Origin: Bradyrhizobium sp. LMTR 3 | GTDB lineage: Bacteria; Pseudomonadota; Alphaproteobacteria; Rhizobiales; Xanthobacteraceae | Assembly (NCBI RefSeq): GCF_001693485.1 | Contig: NZ_MAXC01000033.1 | Location: 186,001-250,000, forward strand | Reading direction: 5' to 3' | Length of the DNA: 64,000 nucleotides | Shown here: in pieces, positions 18,718-26,951 of the stretch | Position numbering within the stretch: position 1 is the first letter of the stretch | Layout: each line of letters starts with the position of its first letter | Program-made: the position numbers and the translations under genes | The notes under the pieces: model-generated | The model's database searches: none | What the model saw: the letters and a program-made list of their open reading frames with translations, nothing else | Told to the model about the DNA's origin: nothing

Positions 18718-20748
18718 TCAAACGTCGAACAGGAAATCGTGCTTTGTGAGTTCATGGGGCCGTACGTTGGTAAGTTCGATCCGGTCATCACCGACCTGGA
18801 CCACCGTGTTCCCATGGTCGCCCCAGATCCTCACGTCGCGAAAGTCCAAACGGCCGGCATTCTCAAACACCAGCATGTCGACGCCCGGATCGAAGTCGGT
18901 GATCTCAGCTTTGGTGGATCCGAAATCAAACACAAAGCGATCCGCGCCGTCATTCCCTGTCATCGTCTGCTTGCCGGTTCCGGCGAACAGATAATCGCCC
19001 TGCGGACCGCCGATCAATGTGTCGTTGCCATCGGAGCCGATGACGATCTGGCGGGCTTCGGGGTCTTCGGACTCCACGCCACCGGCAAGGCCGGTGTGCC
19101 GCGTATAGGTGACGAAGACATCGTCCTGGATATGCTTGGTGTCGGTATTGCGCAGGATGATATCTGCCAGCGTCGTGCCTTTGATCTCTGCCAACGTCTT
19201 GGAATCGAATCCCTGATTCTCGAACCAGAACCGGTCGCCGTCGCGCAACGCCTCGAACTGCATCGTAATGATGGCCTGGAAGGTTTCGCCGACCAGCGCG
19301 CCAGCGACATGATTTTCTGACAAGCCGCCGGTCCACAGGCCGACGTTGTCGACATTGCCGTAAGCCGCTTTCAGTCCGGCCAGCGTTTCCGGGTCGCTCG
19401 TGATCTGGCTGAAATCCGTGTAGGGGTCGAGGCCGAGTGCTTCACGGGTCTGGTTGAGCGTGCCGAGGCCAAGGTCGCGCGCGCGCTGGATGTTGATCGC
19501 GGCGAGATCGAGAGACACCGGTGGATCGAAAAGGAAGTTACGCAGGTCGTCGACGATGCGCGCGTCGAGTGCTTGTGATGGATCGGCGGCCAGGTGGCGC
19601 AATTGTCCGTCGGCGCCGCCATTGTCGTTGAAGTTTGCAGCCGGCTGGAAAAATACATCCTTCAGGTCTTCCTCGGAGCCCGCGATGACTTCGCCGTTCT
19701 CCGCAAGGCCTTCGGTTTCGCCTGACACGATCGAATGTCCGAAGCGGAACGCCGCAGCGACGAATTCCAGCGTGAGGTGGGGATCGACATTGGGGTCATA
19801 GCCGTCGTAGGGCGTGAGCGCGTTCTTGCCAAGTAGGTTTGGCAGGAACTCCGAATAGGTGATGTTGGCGATTTCCGCCGTCACGATAGCGCGGGCGTGA
19901 TTGTAGAGCTGGTCGCCGCTCCAGTTCGGGTGCTCAAGATGCAGTTTGTCGACCCAATAATTGTGTTCGCGCACGAATAGCGTTTGCAGCGCGGTGAGCG
20001 CCGGATTTTCTGCGGCACGGACGTCTCCTGCCACGACCATGCCGTCGACGATCGGCAGGTTGTTGCCAGCCGACGTCAACATGTGGCCGTCGGCGGTGCG
20101 CAGGCTGGCCGCGGTCGCGGCGTTGGACCCATAAACCATAGAGGCGTCCAGCCAGGCGGTATTGGAGTTGACCGCCATCGCGGGATTGGACGTGCCCGCA
20201 CCGGTCGTGGGATCGATGACCGCGCGGGTGATCGGGATGATGGTGCCGGCGGGAAGCACGGGATCGCCGCCGGGGACGACGACGCTGATATCGTTGACGC
20301 CATCCGTCCGGGTCAGCGTCATGTCATGATCGATGAATTGACCCCATGCGTACATGAAGGCGGACACACCTTCCGGGTTCGCCACATCAGGGTCGCCGGC
20401 GCCGACGACAAGATTGCTGATGGTGCGGGGATTGTTGCCGCCGAGCGGGACGGAGATGCCGTCGGCAAAATGCGCCTCGCCGATACGTGCGAATTCGGTG
20501 CCGGCGGCGTTGAGGGTGGAATCCGATTGATTGTTCTGCGAACCGTCGAAGCTGCGGTACTCGAGTTTTACCGGCTTGGGATCCGGGTAGCACGGCGAGC
20601 CGTGAGGGCCATGTGGACCATGGTCCTCACCCGGGCCATGCGAGCCGTGCGGTCGGTGCGGCACATGAAAATGGCCGAGAAAATCGCCGAAGTGAAAATC
20701 GTCGTCTCTGTCTTGGTGTGCCTCCCAAGCCCGCTTGAACTGACGCAT
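18718..20748 (-). CDS. Secreted heme peroxidase (animal type) with RTX tail and His-rich N-terminus
   Basis: A 676-residue peroxidase of the cyclooxygenase/myeloperoxidase superfamily. The distal His is His141 in AWGQFIDHDMTLT and the proximal His is probably His338 in AAFRFGHSIV; REHNYWVDKL is also diagnostic. After about residue 565 come RTX-like calcium repeats (GSDGNDTLIGGPQGDYLF, MTGNDGADRF), which with no signal peptide suggest type I secretion. Residues 19-49 are rich in His, Pro and Gly (HVPHRPHGSHGPGEDHGPHG) and may bind metal. No secretion genes are adjacent. TTGCAA repeats stand upstream. Oxidative or halide chemistry outside the cell is inferred from the family. Confidence 0.9.
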   Translation of the reverse strand: MRQFKRAWEAHQDRDDDFHFGDFLGHFHVPHRPHGSHGPGEDHGPHGPHGSPCYPDPKPVKLEYRSFDGSQNNQSDSTLNAAGTEFARIGEAHFADGISVPLGGNNPRTISNLVVGAGDPDVANPEGVSAFMYAWGQFIDHDMTLTRTDGVNDISVVVPGGDPVLPAGTIIPITRAVIDPTTGAGTSNPAMAVNSNTAWLDASMVYGSNAATAASLRTADGHMLTSAGNNLPIVDGMVVAGDVRAAENPALTALQTLFVREHNYWVDKLHLEHPNWSGDQLYNHARAIVTAEIANITYSEFLPNLLGKNALTPYDGYDPNVDPHLTLEFVAAAFRFGHSIVSGETEGLAENGEVIAGSEEDLKDVFFQPAANFNDNGGADGQLRHLAADPSQALDARIVDDLRNFLFDPPVSLDLAAINIQRARDLGLGTLNQTREALGLDPYTDFSQITSDPETLAGLKAAYGNVDNVGLWTGGLSENHVAGALVGETFQAIITMQFEALRDGDRFWFENQGFDSKTLAEIKGTTLADIILRNTDTKHIQDDVFVTYTRHTGLAGGVESEDPEARQIVIGSDGNDTLIGGPQGDYLFAGTGKQTMTGNDGADRFVFDFGSTKAEITDFDPGVDMLVFENAGRLDFRDVRIWGDHGNTVVQVGDDRIELTNVRPHELTKHDFLFDV

Positions 20749-20764
20749 CTGGATGCTCCCTCAG

Positions 20765-20817
20765 TTGCAATTGCGAATTAGTTGCAATTGGTTGTCACGA
20801 ATGCGAGGCATTTGCAA
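20765..20817. promoter_or_regulatory. TTGCAA half-site cluster upstream of the peroxidase
   Basis: TTGCAA occurs at 20765-20770, 20782-20787 and 20812-20817, with TTGCGAA at 20771. The same hexamer in inverted pairs stands in front of mntH. Rhizobial Mur (a manganese-responsive Fur homologue) binds TTGCAA-like inverted repeats near mntH and sit genes. The match is suggestive, but the spacing here (11 bases between hexamers) differs from that at mntH. Confidence 0.4.
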
Positions 20818-20884
20818 TAAGGAAGTGCGGGCTGCCCGCAGCCCGCGCGCTTCCCTACAACTGACAGGAGAGAGGGACTCCAGG

Positions 20885-20917
20885 AAAAAGGCCCGCCGCG
20901 CGAATGGCGGCAGGCCT
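20885..20917 (-). terminator. Rho-independent terminator after yqiK
   Basis: On the minus strand the stem AGGCCTGCCGC pairs with GCGGCGGGCCT (one G-U pair) across a seven-base loop and runs straight into a T tract. It lies 35 bases after the YqiK stop and closes the pspA-yqiJ-yqiK operon. Confidence 0.75.
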
Positions 20918-20951
20918 CGATTTGAACGGCGTTCTGGCTGCTTCTGCTTGA

Positions 20952-22727
20952 TTACGACTTCGGCCCGAGCGTCGCCTTGCCGGTTCCCGAGATCGTCGCC
21001 GGCGGCGTAGCTAGCTCATCTTCATCAGCATCTATAGCAGCGGGCAATTCGGCAGGACTGGCGAGTTGCTGCGCGGCCAGCGCGTTGGTCAGGCTGGTCA
21101 GCGCGTCGGGGCCGGCGGCGAAGCCGCCCTCGGCGAGGATCTTGTCGATGATCGGCTTGAACGCCGAGACCGACAGCAACTGCGCGGCAAGGCCGTCACC
21201 CAGACCAAGCCCGTTGCCATGGCCGTTCATCGCGCCATTGCCGCCGCCACGGCCGAGCAGGCCGCCGGTGTCGAAGATCCGGATGTCGGAAATCTTCTCG
21301 ATCGGCTTGACCGCTTCGGCCAGCGCGTTCGGGATGATGTTGATGCGCGCCATGGTGAGATCGTAGTCGACCATCGCCTGAGAGAGCTTGTTGCGCGCTT
21401 CCGCCTTCAAGGCCGCCACCTCGGCCTCGGCCTGGCCGAGCGATTTGACGCCGAGTGCGCGGGTGGTTGCCGCCTCGGCGTCGGCCTTGGCCAGCATGGT
21501 GATGGCTTCCGCCTTGTTGTTCGCAGCCTGGTTCTCGGCTTCCGCCATCACGGTGATCGGCATCGCCTCGGTCTCGGCAGCCTTGCGCGCCGCGATCACG
21601 TTGATGATCTTGTCGCGTTCGGCGATTTCGACGGCTTTGGCGGTGGTGACCTTTTCCTCGGCCGCAATTGCCAGCGCACGCGCGGTCTCGGCGACGGTCT
21701 GCGCTTCCGACTGTTCCTTGCTTTTGGTCGCAACCGCGATCGCGCTTTCCTGCGCGACGATCTGCAGGTCGCGCTCCATTTCAGTGTTGCGGCGCTTCAC
21801 CGCGAGGTCGGCCTCGATCTTTCTGGTGTCGCGCAACTGATTGGCTTCGGTCTGCTTGTTGGCGACCGCCAGTTCCTGCTGGATGCGGTATTCGGCCTCG
21901 TTCTGCAGCGCGGTCTGCTCGACCTGCGCAGTCTGCGCGCGCATCGCGGCGGTCTTGTTGGCGATGTCGCGCTGTTGGGCCAGCTCCGCCTCGCGCTTGG
22001 TGGCCTCGATCGTCAGCGTGGTCTGGCGGGCGACGAGGTCCTGCTGCGCGATGTTGACCTCGGTGGTGCGCACGATCTGGTTGCGCTCCTGTTCGCGCTC
22101 GCGCGTGATCTTGGTCAGCGTCGTCAGACCGTGGGCGTCGAAGAAGTTGCTCGGGTTGAAATGTTTGATGTCGCTCTGGTCGAGACGGGTCAGCGACACC
22201 GATTCGAGCTCAAGGCCGTTGTTCTGGATGTCGGCGCCGACGGCGTCCTGCACCGATTTCACGAACGTCGCGCGCTGCTCCTGCAGCTCCTCGAGGTTCA
22301 TGGTGGCGGCCACCGAACGCAGGCCGTCGACGAATTTGGCCTCGATCAGTTCGCGCAGCTCGCCTGCATTTTGGGTGCGGCTGCCGAGCGTTTGCGCGGC
22401 AAGCGCGATCGAGGAAGTATCGGGTTTGACGCGCAGATAGAACTCGGCGCCGATATCGACGCGCATGCGGTCCTTGGTGATCATCGAGTCCGGGCCGCCG
22501 CGGGTGACCTCCAGCCGCAGCGTCTTCAGATTGACCGCGGCGACGGAGTGGAACACCGGAAGGACGATCGAGCCGCCGTCGAGCACGACCTTCTGGCCGC
22601 CGAGTCCGGTGCGGACATAGGCTTCATCACGGGTCGAGCGGCGGTACAGTTTGGCAAGCAGTAAACCGATAACAAGAACGGCGATAACGCCAATCGTGAC
22701 GGGTATTGCAAGTTCCCACATGTTCAA
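20952..22727 (-). CDS. yqiK: Flotillin family protein YqiK
   Basis: A 591-residue membrane-anchored scaffold protein. One N-terminal helix (residues about 7-27) is followed by a SPFH/band 7 domain (GGQKVVLDGGSIVLPVFHSV; FYLRVKPDTSSIALAAQTLG). A long alanine- and glutamate-rich coiled coil covers about 205-450, and the C-terminal tail is Gly/Asn-rich (GRGGGNGAMNGHGNGLGLG). Flotillins organise membrane microdomains. It overlaps yqiJ by four bases (ATGA) and is last in the operon, before a terminator. Confidence 0.9.
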   Translation of the reverse strand: MNMWELAIPVTIGVIAVLVIGLLLAKLYRRSTRDEAYVRTGLGGQKVVLDGGSIVLPVFHSVAAVNLKTLRLEVTRGGPDSMITKDRMRVDIGAEFYLRVKPDTSSIALAAQTLGSRTQNAGELRELIEAKFVDGLRSVAATMNLEELQEQRATFVKSVQDAVGADIQNNGLELESVSLTRLDQSDIKHFNPSNFFDAHGLTTLTKITREREQERNQIVRTTEVNIAQQDLVARQTTLTIEATKREAELAQQRDIANKTAAMRAQTAQVEQTALQNEAEYRIQQELAVANKQTEANQLRDTRKIEADLAVKRRNTEMERDLQIVAQESAIAVATKSKEQSEAQTVAETARALAIAAEEKVTTAKAVEIAERDKIINVIAARKAAETEAMPITVMAEAENQAANNKAEAITMLAKADAEAATTRALGVKSLGQAEAEVAALKAEARNKLSQAMVDYDLTMARINIIPNALAEAVKPIEKISDIRIFDTGGLLGRGGGNGAMNGHGNGLGLGDGLAAQLLSVSAFKPIIDKILAEGGFAAGPDALTSLTNALAAQQLASPAELPAAIDADEDELATPPATISGTGKATLGPKS

Positions 22728-23383
22728 GCCCTGTCTGAACGTTGTTGCGCAATGAGGTCGGCTGGTGCGGAAATGGCGATAAAGCTTTTGGCGTCACGGT
22801 CGACCAGCAAAACGCTGGCGCCGACCGGGAGGGGTACGGATTCGGGACTGGCGCGCGCCACCAGAGAGTGCCAGTTACCGAAGACATCCTTGAGACGGAC
22901 GCGGCCGGGCAGTCCCTGGTCGAGCGGGCCGATCGAAACCTCGGCGACATGGCCGATGAAATCGGCCTCGTCCACCGCATAGGTCTCGTCGCGAGGGATG
23001 ATCTTGGCGATGCCGCGGCTGGTGACGCGGATGGCCGGAATGCTGCAGGCCGCCGCGGCGAGCGCCGCGATCGAGATGGGGACCGAGATCCCCACGCCGT
23101 GCGCCAACCCTTGCAGGAAGAATCCCGCGATCGAGAACGTGCCGAGCGCGAGAATGATCAGGATCAAAAGCGGTAGACGCCCCGCATTGATCCAGAGGAA
23201 CAGGCCGCCGAGGCCATTGGCGTGGTCGGACTCGACGGTGACTTCCTTGCCGAGCAGTTCGCTGATCGAGAAGCCGACCAGCGTCGCCAGCAGTTCGATG
23301 CCACCGAGCGCCAGCATGATTGCGGCGGCAATTGCGAAGGGACGTACGTCGGGCGCCAGCAGGAGGTCGGACACGGCACTCAT
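22724..23383 (-). CDS. yqiJ: YqiJ family membrane protein with OB-fold domain
   Basis: A 219-residue NfeD-like partner of flotillin. Three or four hydrophobic helices cover residues 15-125, and a C-terminal OB-like domain follows (GHVAEVSIGPLDQGLPGRVR; SLVARASPESVPLPVGASV). In E. coli yqiJ and yqiK are neighbours and affect membrane behaviour. Overlaps of four bases on both sides (ATGA) tie it to the PspA-like and YqiK genes. Confidence 0.85.
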   Translation of the reverse strand: MSAVSDLLLAPDVRPFAIAAAIMLALGGIELLATLVGFSISELLGKEVTVESDHANGLGGLFLWINAGRLPLLILIILALGTFSIAGFFLQGLAHGVGISVPISIAALAAAACSIPAIRVTSRGIAKIIPRDETYAVDEADFIGHVAEVSIGPLDQGLPGRVRLKDVFGNWHSLVARASPESVPLPVGASVLLVDRDAKSFIAISAPADLIAQQRSDRA

Positions 23384-24510
23384 TGCTGCGATTTGATCCT
23401 TTCAAGCCGCGCCGCGATTTCCTTCTCGCGATGCAACCGGTCGAGTTCGTCGAGCTCCTTGTCGCCGGGCACGCTTGCAGCCGGCACGCCGGTGACGCGT
23501 GCGATCGCCGCCATCGCCCGATCGGGACTCACGGTCTTGGTCGCGCCGGCCGCGCGTCCGGTTTCGTGCGGCGCGTGTTTTTCGAGGCTCGCCTCGAGAT
23601 CGGCGAGGCGGGTCTCGGCTTCACGCCGCGCGCCAAGCATCGCCTGCAACGCCTTGGTCTGCTCGTCGATTTCGAGTTCGATGAAATCCATCGCGCGCTC
23701 CAGCGCGGTACCCTGCGATTCCAGATCAATTTGCCGTGCAACGCCGGCGCGGGCGAGATCTTCGCGGTTCTCTGCAACCGCAAGACGAATCTTGTCGGTC
23801 AGCGCGGCGATTTCGCCGTCGAGCTCCTCGCGCCGGCGCTTGAGGCGGAACTCCTCGGCGCGGGACTTGCCGAGTGCGTGGCGCGCTTCGTCGGCGCCGG
23901 CGTCGATTTCGCGGATCGCCTGCTTGACCAGCGCGACCTTGTTGCTGTTCTCGGCATTGTCGATCGTCTCACTGGCAATGGCGGCAAGAAGTCTGCCCAT
24001 ACGCGCAAGGATACCTTCGTGAACCATGGTCTTCTCCTCCGGCTGTGGTGATTTCGATTTGACGGCGATGTGGATTTCGTAAGCCCGGCCGTCCGAAACC
24101 AAATGAGCCGGGAAAGGGCTATCCCAGCCGGCAAGATAGCCGGGGATTTCAAACGGCACCAAGACACGTCCGTGGACAGTGCTAATGGTCAGTGAAGTTG
24201 GTCCCTTGATCGCAAACAACTTGTCGTCGAGCGGGATTTTGCGCGTTGCCGAGCCGGCGACGTAACTGGCGCGGTCGCGCAGACCAAGCGTCACGAGACG
24301 CGCGGGCAGTCCCGTCTCGATGCGGATCCGCTCATAGGCCTGGGCGTGGAGGGTAACGAGGTTGGCGCCGACCGGGGCAACCTCGGCGAGGATCGCCATC
24401 ATCCGGTCATAGGCGGCAAAGGTCGCTTCTATGGCGGCGATGCCGGCCTCGTCGGGGGCGAGGGCGTATCGCAGCGTGGCCGTCGGAGTTTCGATCGGAA
24501 CCTTTATCAT
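23380..24510 (-). CDS. PspA/IM30-like protein with TnpB-like N-terminal extension
   Basis: One continuous frame of 376 codons. Residues 162-376 form a PspA/IM30 (YjfJ-like) coiled-coil protein (MVHEGILARMGRLLAAIASE onward). Residues 1-161 resemble the N-terminal part of TnpB-type nucleases. The landmarks are ATLRYALAPDEAGIAAIEAT (the usual opening), LHAQAYERIRIETGLPARLV (YxxxRxxxGL helix), FAIKGPTSLTISTVHGRVLV (the SFKG...L.T..GR..VPF strand block) and GRAYEIHIAVK (DGK.YL.V.V). No RuvC motifs follow. PspA has its own ribosome-binding site and ATG at 24027, so both a fusion and a shorter PspA are possible. First gene of the pspA-yqiJ-yqiK operon. The PspA call is firm; the TnpB call rests on motif memory. 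Confidence 0.75.
   Translation of the reverse strand: MIKVPIETPTATLRYALAPDEAGIAAIEATFAAYDRMMAILAEVAPVGANLVTLHAQAYERIRIETGLPARLVTLGLRDRASYVAGSATRKIPLDDKLFAIKGPTSLTISTVHGRVLVPFEIPGYLAGWDSPFPAHLVSDGRAYEIHIAVKSKSPQPEEKTMVHEGILARMGRLLAAIASETIDNAENSNKVALVKQAIREIDAGADEARHALGKSRAEEFRLKRRREELDGEIAALTDKIRLAVAENREDLARAGVARQIDLESQGTALERAMDFIELEIDEQTKALQAMLGARREAETRLADLEASLEKHAPHETGRAAGATKTVSPDRAMAAIARVTGVPAASVPGDKELDELDRLHREKEIAARLERIKSQQ
24025..24040 (-). promoter_or_regulatory. Internal ribosome-binding site and ATG for the PspA part
   Basis: On the minus strand GGAGGAG (24034-24040) stands six bases before an in-frame ATG (24025-24027). This is stronger than the weak signal at the upstream ATG (24510). 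It implies that the PspA-like protein is also, or mainly, made alone. Confidence 0.7.
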
Positions 24511-24578
24511 GCGGGTCAGCGTAAAGTACTTCCTCAGTGCTTTAGGCGATCTGCGGTATCATTTTCGTGATCTCCAGA

Positions 24579-24623
24579 TGCAACTGCACATGATTGCCAG
24601 ATGCAGTTGCAAATGAGTTGCAA
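24579..24623. promoter_or_regulatory. TTGCAA inverted repeats upstream of mntH, probable Mur-type operator
   Basis: TTGCAAATGAGTTGCAA (24607-24623) is two palindromic hexamers 11 bases apart centre to centre, ending 29 bases before the mntH start. A second perfect inverted repeat, TGCAACTGCA (24579-24588) with TGCAGTTGCA (24602-24611), overlaps it. Mur is known to repress mntH in Bradyrhizobium. The site also lies between mntH and the divergent TnpB-like/pspA operon. Confidence 0.5.
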
Positions 24624-24652
24624 TAAGAACGAAGATCGGCCATCTTCCTGAA

Positions 24653-26041
24653 ATGGATGCGCGCACGCCCGAGTTGGGACCGGAAGCCAAGGGTTTGGTG
24701 ATGGCTGACACGACCGCCACCGGTTGGCGCGCTGACGCCGCCGCCGACGCGCGGCGGAGCTTGCCCGAGGTCAATTCCACGATCCTGGTGCCCTTTGGCG
24801 GGCATTGGTCGCGCCGGCTGCTGGCCTTCCTCGGCCCGGGCTATCTGGTTTCGGTCGGCTACATGGACCCCGGCAACTGGGCCACCGACCTCGCGGGCGG
24901 TTCGAAGTTCGGCTACACGCTGCTCGCGGTCATCCTGCTGTCGAACCTGATGGCGATCCTGTTGCAGGCGCTCGCCGCGCGGCTTGGCATCGTCACCGAC
25001 CGCGATCTGGCGCAGGCCTGCCGCGCCAGCTTCTCGCGGCCCGTGAACTTCCTGCTCTGGGTGGTCTGCGAGGCGGCGATCATCGCCTGCGATCTTGCCG
25101 AGGTGATCGGCACCGCGATCGCGCTCAACCTGTTGTTCGGCATTCCCCTGATCTGGGGCGCGCTGATAACGGCGCTCGATGCCTTCCTGCTGCTCCTCCT
25201 GATGAACAAGGGTTTTCGCTTCCTCGAAGCCTTCGTCATCTCGCTGCTGATTGTGATCGCGGTCTGCTTTTCGATTCAGATCGTGGCTGCGGCGCCGCCG
25301 GTAGCTGCCGTCCTGAAGGGGTTTGTGCCGTCGCCCGAGATCGTCACCAATCCGGAGATGCTCTACATCGCCATCGGCATCATCGGCGCCACCGTGATGC
25401 CGCATAATCTCTACCTGCACTCTTCGATCGTGCAGACCCGCGCCTATGAACGCAACGACAAGGGGCGCCGCGAGGCGATCAAATGGGCGACGACGGACTC
25501 GACCATCGCGCTGATGCTGGCGCTGTTCATCAATGCCGCGATCCTGATCGTCGCCGCTTCCACCTTCCATGCGACCGGCCGCACGGAAGTGGCCGAAATC
25601 GGCCAGGCATATGAACTGCTGTCGCCGCTGCTCGGCCTCGGCATTGCCTCGACCCTGTTTGCGGTGGCGCTGCTCGCCTCCGGCCTGAACTCGACCGTCA
25701 CCGCGACGCTGGCGGGCCAGATCGTGATGGAGGGCTTTCTGCACCTGCGGCTGCCGAACTGGGCGCGGCGGCTCGTCACCCGCGGCATCGCCATCGTTCC
25801 GGTCGTGATCGTCACCGCGCTCTATGGCGAGCGCGGCACCGGCCAACTCCTGGTGTTCAGCCAGGTCGTGCTGTCGATGCAATTGCCGTTCGCGGTGATC
25901 CCGCTGGTGAAATTCGTTTCCGACCGCCGCAAGATGGGCAAGTTCGTCATCCCGCGCGCGGTAGCTGCCGTGGCGTGGATCGTGGCCGGAATCATCGTCG
26001 CGCTGAACGTGAAGTTGTTGTTCGAGACGTTTTTCGGCTAG
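24653..26041 (+). CDS. mntH: Nramp divalent metal transporter MntH
   Basis: A 462-residue Nramp-family proton-coupled Mn(II)/Fe(II) importer in the inner membrane. Both signature motifs are present: [14 protein letters not shown] in helix 1 and [19 protein letters not shown] in helix 6, with about eleven helices in all. The N-terminal 40 residues are polar. In Bradyrhizobium MntH is the main manganese importer, repressed through Mur when manganese is ample; TTGCAA inverted repeats upstream fit this. A start at 24653 gives the full frame; an internal ATG at 24701 is possible. Confidence 0.93.
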
Positions 26042-26061
26042 TGCCGCACAGTAGGTATTGC

Positions 26062-26163
26062 CCTCATGGTGAGGAGCGCGCACTTGCGCGCGTCTCGAAC
26101 CATGAGGCCCCGTCAGTGCCATTCATCCTTCGAGACGCCGCTGCGCGGCTCCTCAGGATGAGG
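26062..26163. repeat. CCTCATGGTGAGGAGCGCG repeat cluster
   Basis: The block contains CCTCATGGTGAGGAGCGCG, then CGAACCATGAGGCC, then ATCCTTCGAGACGCCGCTG and CTCCTCAGGATGAGG. CCTCATGG...CCATGAGG and CATCCT...AGGATG form inverted repeats. A related block is at 29759-29862. It fills the space between mntH and bpt. Confidence 0.75.
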
Positions 26164-26174
26164 TTTGGCCCTCT

Positions 26175-26951
26175 TCAATCCTGCGGCTCGGACAGCATTT
26201 CGCCCATCGCATCCACCCGCAGCCAGCCTGACGGCGCCAGTCGCTGCTGCGGCAGGAAGCGGCCCTTGTAGTCCATCTTCTTGGAGCCTTCGATCCAGTA
26301 GCCGAGATAGACGTAAGGCAGCCCAAGCCGGCGCGCGCGGGTGATGTGGTCGAGGATCATGAAGGTGCCGAGCGAGCGGCTCGCCTGCGACGGCTCGAAG
26401 AACGAGTACACCATCGACAGCCCGTCGCTGAGCACATCCGTCAGCGCCACCGCGATCAGCTCCTCGCCGCGGCCGGTGATGCCGGTGTCGACGCCGCGCT
26501 TGCGGTATTCGATGATGCGGGTCTCGACATGGCTGTCTTCCACCATCATCGCGTAGTCGAGCACGGTCATGTCGGCCATGCCGCCATGGCGGTGGCGCCT
26601 GTCGAGATAGGCGCGGAACACGGAGTATTGCTCCGACGTCGGCACCGCGCTGCGCTGCTCGCCGACGATGTCGGCATTGCGCGCCAACACCTTCTTGAAG
26701 TTGCGCGAGGGGCGGAATTCGTTGGCGATGACGCGCACGGAGACGCAGGCCCGGCACTGGTCGCAGGCCGGGCGGTAGGCGATCGACTGGCTGCGGCGGA
26801 AGCCGCCATGGGTCAGGAGGTCGTTGAGGTCGCCGGCCTTGTCGCCGACCAGATGCGTGAACACCTTGCGCTCGTGCCGGCCCGGCAGATAGGGGCAGGG
26901 CGAGGGCGCCGTCAGGTAGAATTGCGGGGTATCACGCGAGTGTTGGGTCAC
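26175..26951 (-). CDS. bpt: Aspartate/glutamate leucyltransferase (bacterial ATE homologue)
   Basis: A 258-residue N-end-rule enzyme that adds leucine from Leu-tRNA to proteins starting with Asp or Glu and so marks them for ClpS/ClpAP. The N-terminal cysteine motif [12 protein letters not shown] and [17 protein letters not shown] are typical, as are [20 protein letters not shown] near the end and [10 protein letters not shown]. Length fits the family. Monocistronic, transcribed leftwards. Confidence 0.92.

Follow-up and report, generated by a model that had tools for sequence, protein, structure and literature searches.

Why does the N-terminal half of a transposon nuclease stand in front of a membrane-stress protein? 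The question is raised by a gene of Bradyrhizobium sp. LMTR 3 (contig NZ_MAXC01000033.1), in which a head resembling TnpB is joined in frame to PspA. The explanation that we regard as likely is that, in a pspA-yqiJ-flotillin operon, a TnpB that had lost its nuclease lobe was fused before the native PspA start, and that selection has maintained the fusion. Coordinates are positions in the 64,000-nucleotide stretch of this contig that was analysed (the window), and the parts of the gene are as follows:

23380-24510 (stop included), minus strand: whole fusion gene, TnpB-like head plus PspA, 376 residues (open frame; Pfam)
24028-24510, minus strand: extension (the head), residues 1-161, without RuvC (profile, hhalign, predicted fold)
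23383-24027, minus strand: PspA core, residues 162-376, with its own ATG at 24027 (Pfam PspA_IM30; Foldseek of the full-length model)
24034-24040, minus strand: GGAGGAG, the internal ribosome-binding site from which the short form would be made, within a 12-nucleotide run invariant in 30 sequences

The head and its relation to TnpB

The uninterrupted frame of 376 codons that an earlier note on this DNA had described was found on the minus strand (24510-23380) together with all the peptides quoted from it. It is the only one of the six frames that is open throughout the gene, the other five having 2 to 9 stops, and the third-position guanine plus cytosine (GC) content is 0.73 in the extension and 0.76 in the PspA part. 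Residues 166-302 match PspA_IM30 (E 8.7e-13, 48.8 bits against a cut-off of 33.9), and the full-length model matches PspA and Vipp1 in Foldseek with low confidence for the linker (residues 152-169). The fusion protein falls below the cut-off of the NCBIfam equivalog for phage shock protein PspA (TIGR02977; 30.8 against 242.95 bits), and its own genome has a single match to it.

A head profile built from 29 extensions matches the N-terminal half of a 374-residue protein in a genome of another class (E 1.2e-6); this protein is a TnpB, with OrfB_IS605 and Cas12f1-like_TNB (Pfam) above cut-off and a score that passes the cut-off of the NCBIfam TnpB model. Seven further, weak matches were obtained in the phylum sample (E 0.02 to 0.1). 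Profile-profile comparison (hhalign) of the head with the single 374-residue TnpB gave a probability of 92.4, and with 11 TnpBs 98.5 (E 3.1e-15 over 146 columns, head 10-156 and TnpB 7-166), the alignment stopping just ahead of RuvC with the sequence signatures in register. As decoys, 100 column shuffles on each side (200) reached a probability of 9.0 at most and the reversed TnpB alignment 0.08.

AlphaFold2 models residues 1-153 as one strand, three helices and then strands, with a predicted local distance difference test score (pLDDT) of 86.2 and a predicted template modelling score (pTM) of 0.83; a WED plus REC fold is predicted for approximately residues 8-151. Foldseek ranks 1-12 in the PDB are all TnpB, Fanzor, Cas12 or TranC. 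VIA-align, used as a second look at Foldseek's candidates, superimposed 138 of the 153 residues on ISDra2 TnpB (Z 11.3, root-mean-square deviation 3.6, chain range 2-176), in which WED comprises residues 1-12 and 117-176 and REC residues 13-116 (in passages of PMC10097598). Its rows 1-47 all belong to the TnpB/Fanzor/Cas12/TranC superfamily (Z 11.3 to 6.0) and the first unrelated row has Z 4.4. The structural aligner gives ranges, not residues, and profile matches to ISDra2 begin only after REC. Both RuvC, with its catalytic acidic residues, and the zinc finger are absent, and PspA begins directly after residue 161. By profile, profile-profile comparison and predicted fold, residues 1-161 are the N-terminal half of TnpB (WED plus REC) without RuvC; the homology that the earlier note had read from landmarks in the sequence is upheld, and structure prediction with fold search returned TnpB rather than an unlike fold.

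Among the best 12 matches in a viral library eight are named, i.e. five transposases, one TnpB-like protein, one putative helix-turn-helix regulator and one uncharacterized protein. Two other candidates for the head, a B6 transporter protein in NCBIfam (E 0.0054) and ribose-5-phosphate isomerase in the PDB (E 0.075), were set aside as having the wrong fold. It could also be argued that the extension belongs to the chaperone-type domains, for example CesT/Tir, genes of which occur in pspA-flotillin-YqiJ operons (section 19 of PMC11237479), and that the likeness to TnpB is a convergence on the OB fold. However, the matches to TnpB and Cas12 span WED and the inserted REC helices together, and the sequence signatures align in register with TnpB; a CesT/Tir identity was rejected on the fold, and we consider it highly improbable.

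With TnpB of the IS200/IS605 type (ISDra2; plasmid TnpBs of Bacillota, Thermus and Rhodovastum) the head shares the WED plus REC fold and the signatures Y...R, D.R/K and T..GR. It differs in having no RuvC, zinc finger or adjacent TnpA, in the loss of basic charge and in its fusion to PspA; in its own genome the TnpB model finds no match. The nuclease-dead TnpB repressors (TldR) are likewise host-exapted TnpB relatives tied to a non-transposon gene, but passages of PMC13418256 describe a mutated RuvC and a guide RNA, whereas in the head RuvC is missing altogether and no Rfam family was found in 20500-26200. As far as the cited passages go, the exaptations described (Cas12, TldR) work on nucleic acids and still have a RuvC lobe, be it active or mutated. 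In the present fusion nothing of TnpB but the recognition lobe is left; it is attached to an ESCRT-III-like protein of membrane remodelling and is conserved in both Bradyrhizobium and Rhizobiaceae. This suggests that a piece of a CRISPR-like machine has been recycled into a membrane-stress system. The head would be either a very small exapted TnpB module still reading nucleic acid, or a recognition lobe of CRISPR type converted to protein assembly.

PspA-YqiJ-flotillin operons with the same gene content and PspA_IM30 core are described in section 19 of PMC11237479, and section 14 names fusions of PspA with NlpC/P60, PspAA and tandem repeats. A TnpB-like head is absent from these two sections, no word starting with "transposase" occurs in the main text of that survey, and the passages searched of a second survey (PMC9239133) do not hold a TnpB-type fusion. 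Searches of a library of open-licence papers found no description of a TnpB-PspA fusion.

Distribution, selection and two predicted products

The extension is matched in 43 of 120 relative genomes, its own included (E <= 0.001), and in 41 of these it lies in a complete frame without stops, 386 to 481 codons long; the match in G033 ends at a contig end and that in G003 is a decayed remnant. The PspA part is matched in 45 of the 120 (E <= 1e-6), namely in the 41, in G033 and in G050, G093 and G095, whose three distant PspAs lack the extension. In G003, which belongs to the same genus, head and PspA have shrunk to a short remnant between an Nramp-like gene and yqiJ (L231:2260-2690) and the yqiJ and flotillin matches persist, i.e. 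head and PspA have been lost naturally. The head-less PspA of G095 is accompanied by YqiJ and flotillin. Just upstream of that operon lies an extra gene for 186 residues with no Pfam match (L232:3226-3786, minus strand).

In named genomes a scan found 72 loci, most of them in Bradyrhizobium and Rhizobium and some in Neorhizobium, Endobacterium, Ensifer and Pararhizobium. The order extension, PspA, YqiJ and flotillin holds on all 72 contigs (which were found through the head) and in all five plasmid loci fetched, drawn from 11 alphaproteobacterial plasmid records. Databases annotate the long form at each of the five, and the fusion is named a PspA/IM30 family protein in ten of the 11 records and hypothetical in one. 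In the operons of the Rhizobiales the extension is conserved, and homologues that carry it, whose lack would have counted against the earlier note's reading, do exist. Clear matches were obtained in 9 of 398 genomes of the phylum sample and 4 of 289 of the class sample (the own genome counted in both); the head is uncommon outside the sampled relatives, yet not limited to the window's order. No relatives of it were found in viral contigs or phages. Outside close relatives the extension is 41 to 64% identical to that of the window and the invariant residues are present. A second deep Bradyrhizobium clade of the fusion (L018-L031, L114-L117, L234 and L235) has heads 51-60% identical, with the motif KLFAIKG changed to KLAKIKG in the sequences printed.

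The ratio of nonsynonymous to synonymous substitution rates (dN/dS) has a median of 0.114 in the extension and 0.117 in PspA over 435 pairs of 30 Bradyrhizobium-type sequences, from which four that differ in length and everything more distant were excluded. The distances of head and PspA are correlated (r 0.97, 73 sequences). These similar ratios and correlated distances indicate that the extension is a protein domain travelling with PspA. The head is under purifying selection: the open frame, the dN/dS and the GC-rich third positions agree with the earlier suggestion that the module has been kept, and the upstream part evolves as coding rather than as non-coding sequence. This bears on the view that the annotated start is wrong, only short PspA being made and the upstream part being a decaying transposon relic. 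The strong internal ribosome-binding site, the lack of matches to curated models upstream of it and the loss of head and PspA in G003 would fit. However, the head has a dN/dS equal to that of PspA, an open frame in all 41 genomes with a complete match, invariant residues at 41 to 64% identity and a confident predicted fold, and we hold this view to be very unlikely.

The same region carries a signal at the nucleotide level. The internal site GGAGGAG (24040-24034) precedes the ATG at 24027, as had been noted, and is contained in GGAGGAGAAGAC, the sole run of at least 12 nucleotides that is invariant in all 30 sequences. Among 26 glutamate codons with invariant amino acid only E158 and E159, both in this site, are also codon-invariant. 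All 72 loci have an internal ATG, in most of them accompanied by a GGAGG-like site, and the head-less PspA of G095 begins at the equivalent position (by eye). Because the internal ribosome-binding site is the longest invariant DNA run in the 30 sequences, two products are predicted; long and short PspA are probably both made, and what the earlier note had offered as a possibility we rate as likely.

What the head may bind

Our data suggest the following scheme. With the TnpB recognition lobe placed ahead of PspA's own start and the RuvC lobe lost, the gene would make a long form (head plus PspA) and a short, ordinary PspA. The head would adjoin the N-terminal helix with which PspA binds membranes, and its bulk probably keeps it from being carried by every subunit; the long form would therefore be a minority subunit, which may cap or regulate PspA assembly and dock a partner to a PspA-flotillin platform. 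The best reading of the head is that of an exapted regulatory head on part of the PspA pool. For its ligand, protein has about an even chance of being right, operator DNA of the operon itself is doubtful, RNA is quite unlikely, and something else, or nothing, less likely still; in our judgement docking or assembly control is the most likely role and operator binding the most attractive alternative.

As judged from the aligned residues, fold and core are retained in the head and the general nucleic-acid-binding charge is not. Thirteen aligned columns are conserved to at least 90% among the TnpBs; at ten of them the head has the identical or a conservative residue (Y59, R63, L68, D95, T111, G114, R115; L/I27, L77, K97) and three are lost, Cys-Asn among them. 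Only 6 of 15 mostly basic TnpB columns are still basic (9 lost), and the mean net charge per 100 residues is -1.1 in 29 heads against +5.0 in 11 TnpB N-terminal halves, although single halves range widely (-5.6 to +12.6). The lost charge and lost basic columns weigh against a nucleic-acid role of the head, and the domesticated nucleic-acid-binding regulator that the earlier note had proposed is at most a candidate role, which the promoter repeat described next leaves in play but does not demonstrate.

The case for DNA as the ligand comes from the promoter:

24522-24543, minus strand: inverted repeat AAAGCACTGAGGAAGTACTTTA of the promoter; no other site in the genome fits its pattern perfectly

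Every one of the 72 upstream regions tested, those of 71 loci and that of the window, carries AAAGYRC-N-GYRCTTTA, which in 67 of them ends 9 to 11 nucleotides before the first ATG; in 66 of the 72 TTG lies just upstream of the repeat, which then forms the spacer of a -35/-10 layout. This layout points to a messenger RNA (mRNA) whose 5' end lies at the first ATG or near it. Leaderless mRNAs have been recorded in both Sinorhizobium meliloti and Bradyrhizobium japonicum (PMC3616915 and PMC4842269, in passages). CTTG at -35 suggests RpoH as the sigma factor (passages of PMC4167512 and PMC4842269). The repeat was also seen by eye in L101 and in the five plasmid operons fetched, and it is present in 17 of 17 diverged-clade Bradyrhizobium genomes for which a locus was available. 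In the four most diverged of the operons inspected an inverted repeat stays and both arms differ together (by eye): AAAGGA/TCCTTT in G126 and G741, AAAGTA/TACTTT in G669 and AAAACACCG/CGGTGTTTT in G263. It was not seen in the 160 nucleotides before the head-less pspA of G095, the one head-less operon compared. A C/A mismatch in the stem is found in 3 of 72 sequences; such mismatches, and the place between the presumed promoter boxes, tend to favour a DNA operator over an RNA hairpin. At three mismatches or fewer a backward control pattern outscores the pattern in matches within the own genome.

The head might bind the repeat and repress the operon until PspA is drawn to stressed membrane. The control of PspF by PspA is an analogue of such autoregulation. 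In favour are the presence of the repeat in all upstream regions, plasmid operons and diverged-clade genomes tested, the single perfect genomic site, its absence from the 160 nucleotides inspected before the head-less gene, the ten TnpB-conserved columns kept, and the grip of TnpB on the duplex of the transposon-associated motif (TAM) between WED and REC (passages of PMC10097598); moreover, no regulator gene is constantly adjacent in the five plasmid contexts (from an incomplete gene table). Where the heads are most diverged, the two arms of the operon's repeat have changed in concert, as would be expected if reader and site co-evolve. Yet the head's net charge is close to zero or negative, nine basic columns and the Cys-Asn signature are lost, the head-less comparison rests on one operon, and a regulator encoded elsewhere or an RNA hairpin accounts for the repeat equally well. 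Co-varying arms fit operator and hairpin alike and do not name the reader, so they leave the odds on the head's ligand unaffected, and we think autoregulation by the head rather unlikely. A more specific version, in which the TAM-reading lobe has become a guide-free, sequence-specific DNA reader, is unlikely: PspA oligomers with few heads would sit on their own promoter repeat between -35 and -10 and be released on recruitment to damaged membrane, the isoform ratio being set by the start at or near the mRNA 5' end and the internal ribosome-binding site. If true, an ESCRT-III-like membrane protein would be sensor, effector and repressor together.

Binding of RNA, guide-like or as a structured transcript, would make the membrane PspA RNA-responsive. 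The WED domain of TnpB contacts the guide RNA scaffold, but RuvC, absent here, shares the RNA contact in the TnpB structure (both from passages of PMC10097598). Y59, R63, K97, K102 and R115 are invariant in 29 heads; against this stand the loss of basic charge and the lack of an Rfam match at gathering score in 20500-26200, and RNA binding seems quite improbable to us.

Returning to the fusion of a nuclease-less TnpB with PspA, kept by selection and acting through assembly or docking, several observations count against it. No Pfam, NCBIfam or PHROGs model recognises the head convincingly, and a head-profile search of PDB sequences finds no TnpB, so that it took structure or a more closely related TnpB subfamily to make the link; Foldseek gives modest E-values (2e-3 at best, none below 1e-3) and some of the twelve matches have low probability. 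The codons E158 and E159 are not alone, since 23 of 229 amino-acid-invariant degenerate codons are codon-invariant, the others lying elsewhere in the gene; codon variation is low in residues 141-154 too, and the constraint may reach further upstream of the internal site. The window's own promoter is without the -35 TTG, and the capping or docking role is itself a proposal.

Neighbouring genes and related TnpB fragments

The genes around the fusion are:

22724-23383, minus strand: YqiJ-type membrane protein with OB domain (Pfam YqiJ_N and YqiJ_OB), beginning within the end of the fusion gene
20952-22727, minus strand: flotillin with Band_7 domain (Pfam Flot and Band_7)
24653-26041, plus strand: divergent Nramp transporter gene, upstream of the fusion gene

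PspA, YqiJ and flotillin thus follow in order on one strand, and the Pfam matches agree with the operon proposed earlier; from its families a function in membrane stress would be expected. A transposon context with a TnpA neighbour, which is optional in the TnpB family, is absent, the neighbours being the Nramp transporter, YqiJ and flotillin. In the gap between the fusion and Nramp genes (24560-24650) there is a TTGCAACT...TGCATCTGG-like sequence that recurs in many Bradyrhizobium loci (by eye) and may be part of the transporter's metal control.

Stand-alone genes for the N-terminal part of TnpB on Paenibacillaceae plasmids also hold the WED plus REC half without RuvC, but they are separate small genes, unfused to PspA, in other plasmid contexts. 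They are found at L106:2881-3411 (Thermobacillus composti pTHECO01) and L256:2989-3531 (a Paenibacillus rhizovicinus plasmid), encode 176-180 residues that end before RuvC, are 53% identical to each other and have no Pfam match; the closest full TnpB with an annotation that the search gave has 46% identity. The Thermobacillus gene matches the head profile with an hhalign probability of 95.4, and the two are possibly a second exapted RuvC-less TnpB lobe. Finally, a TnpB of Allomeiothermus silvanus pMESIL01 (L257:1986-2513) ends right after the first RuvC motif (GVDLGI) and looks like a recent truncation.
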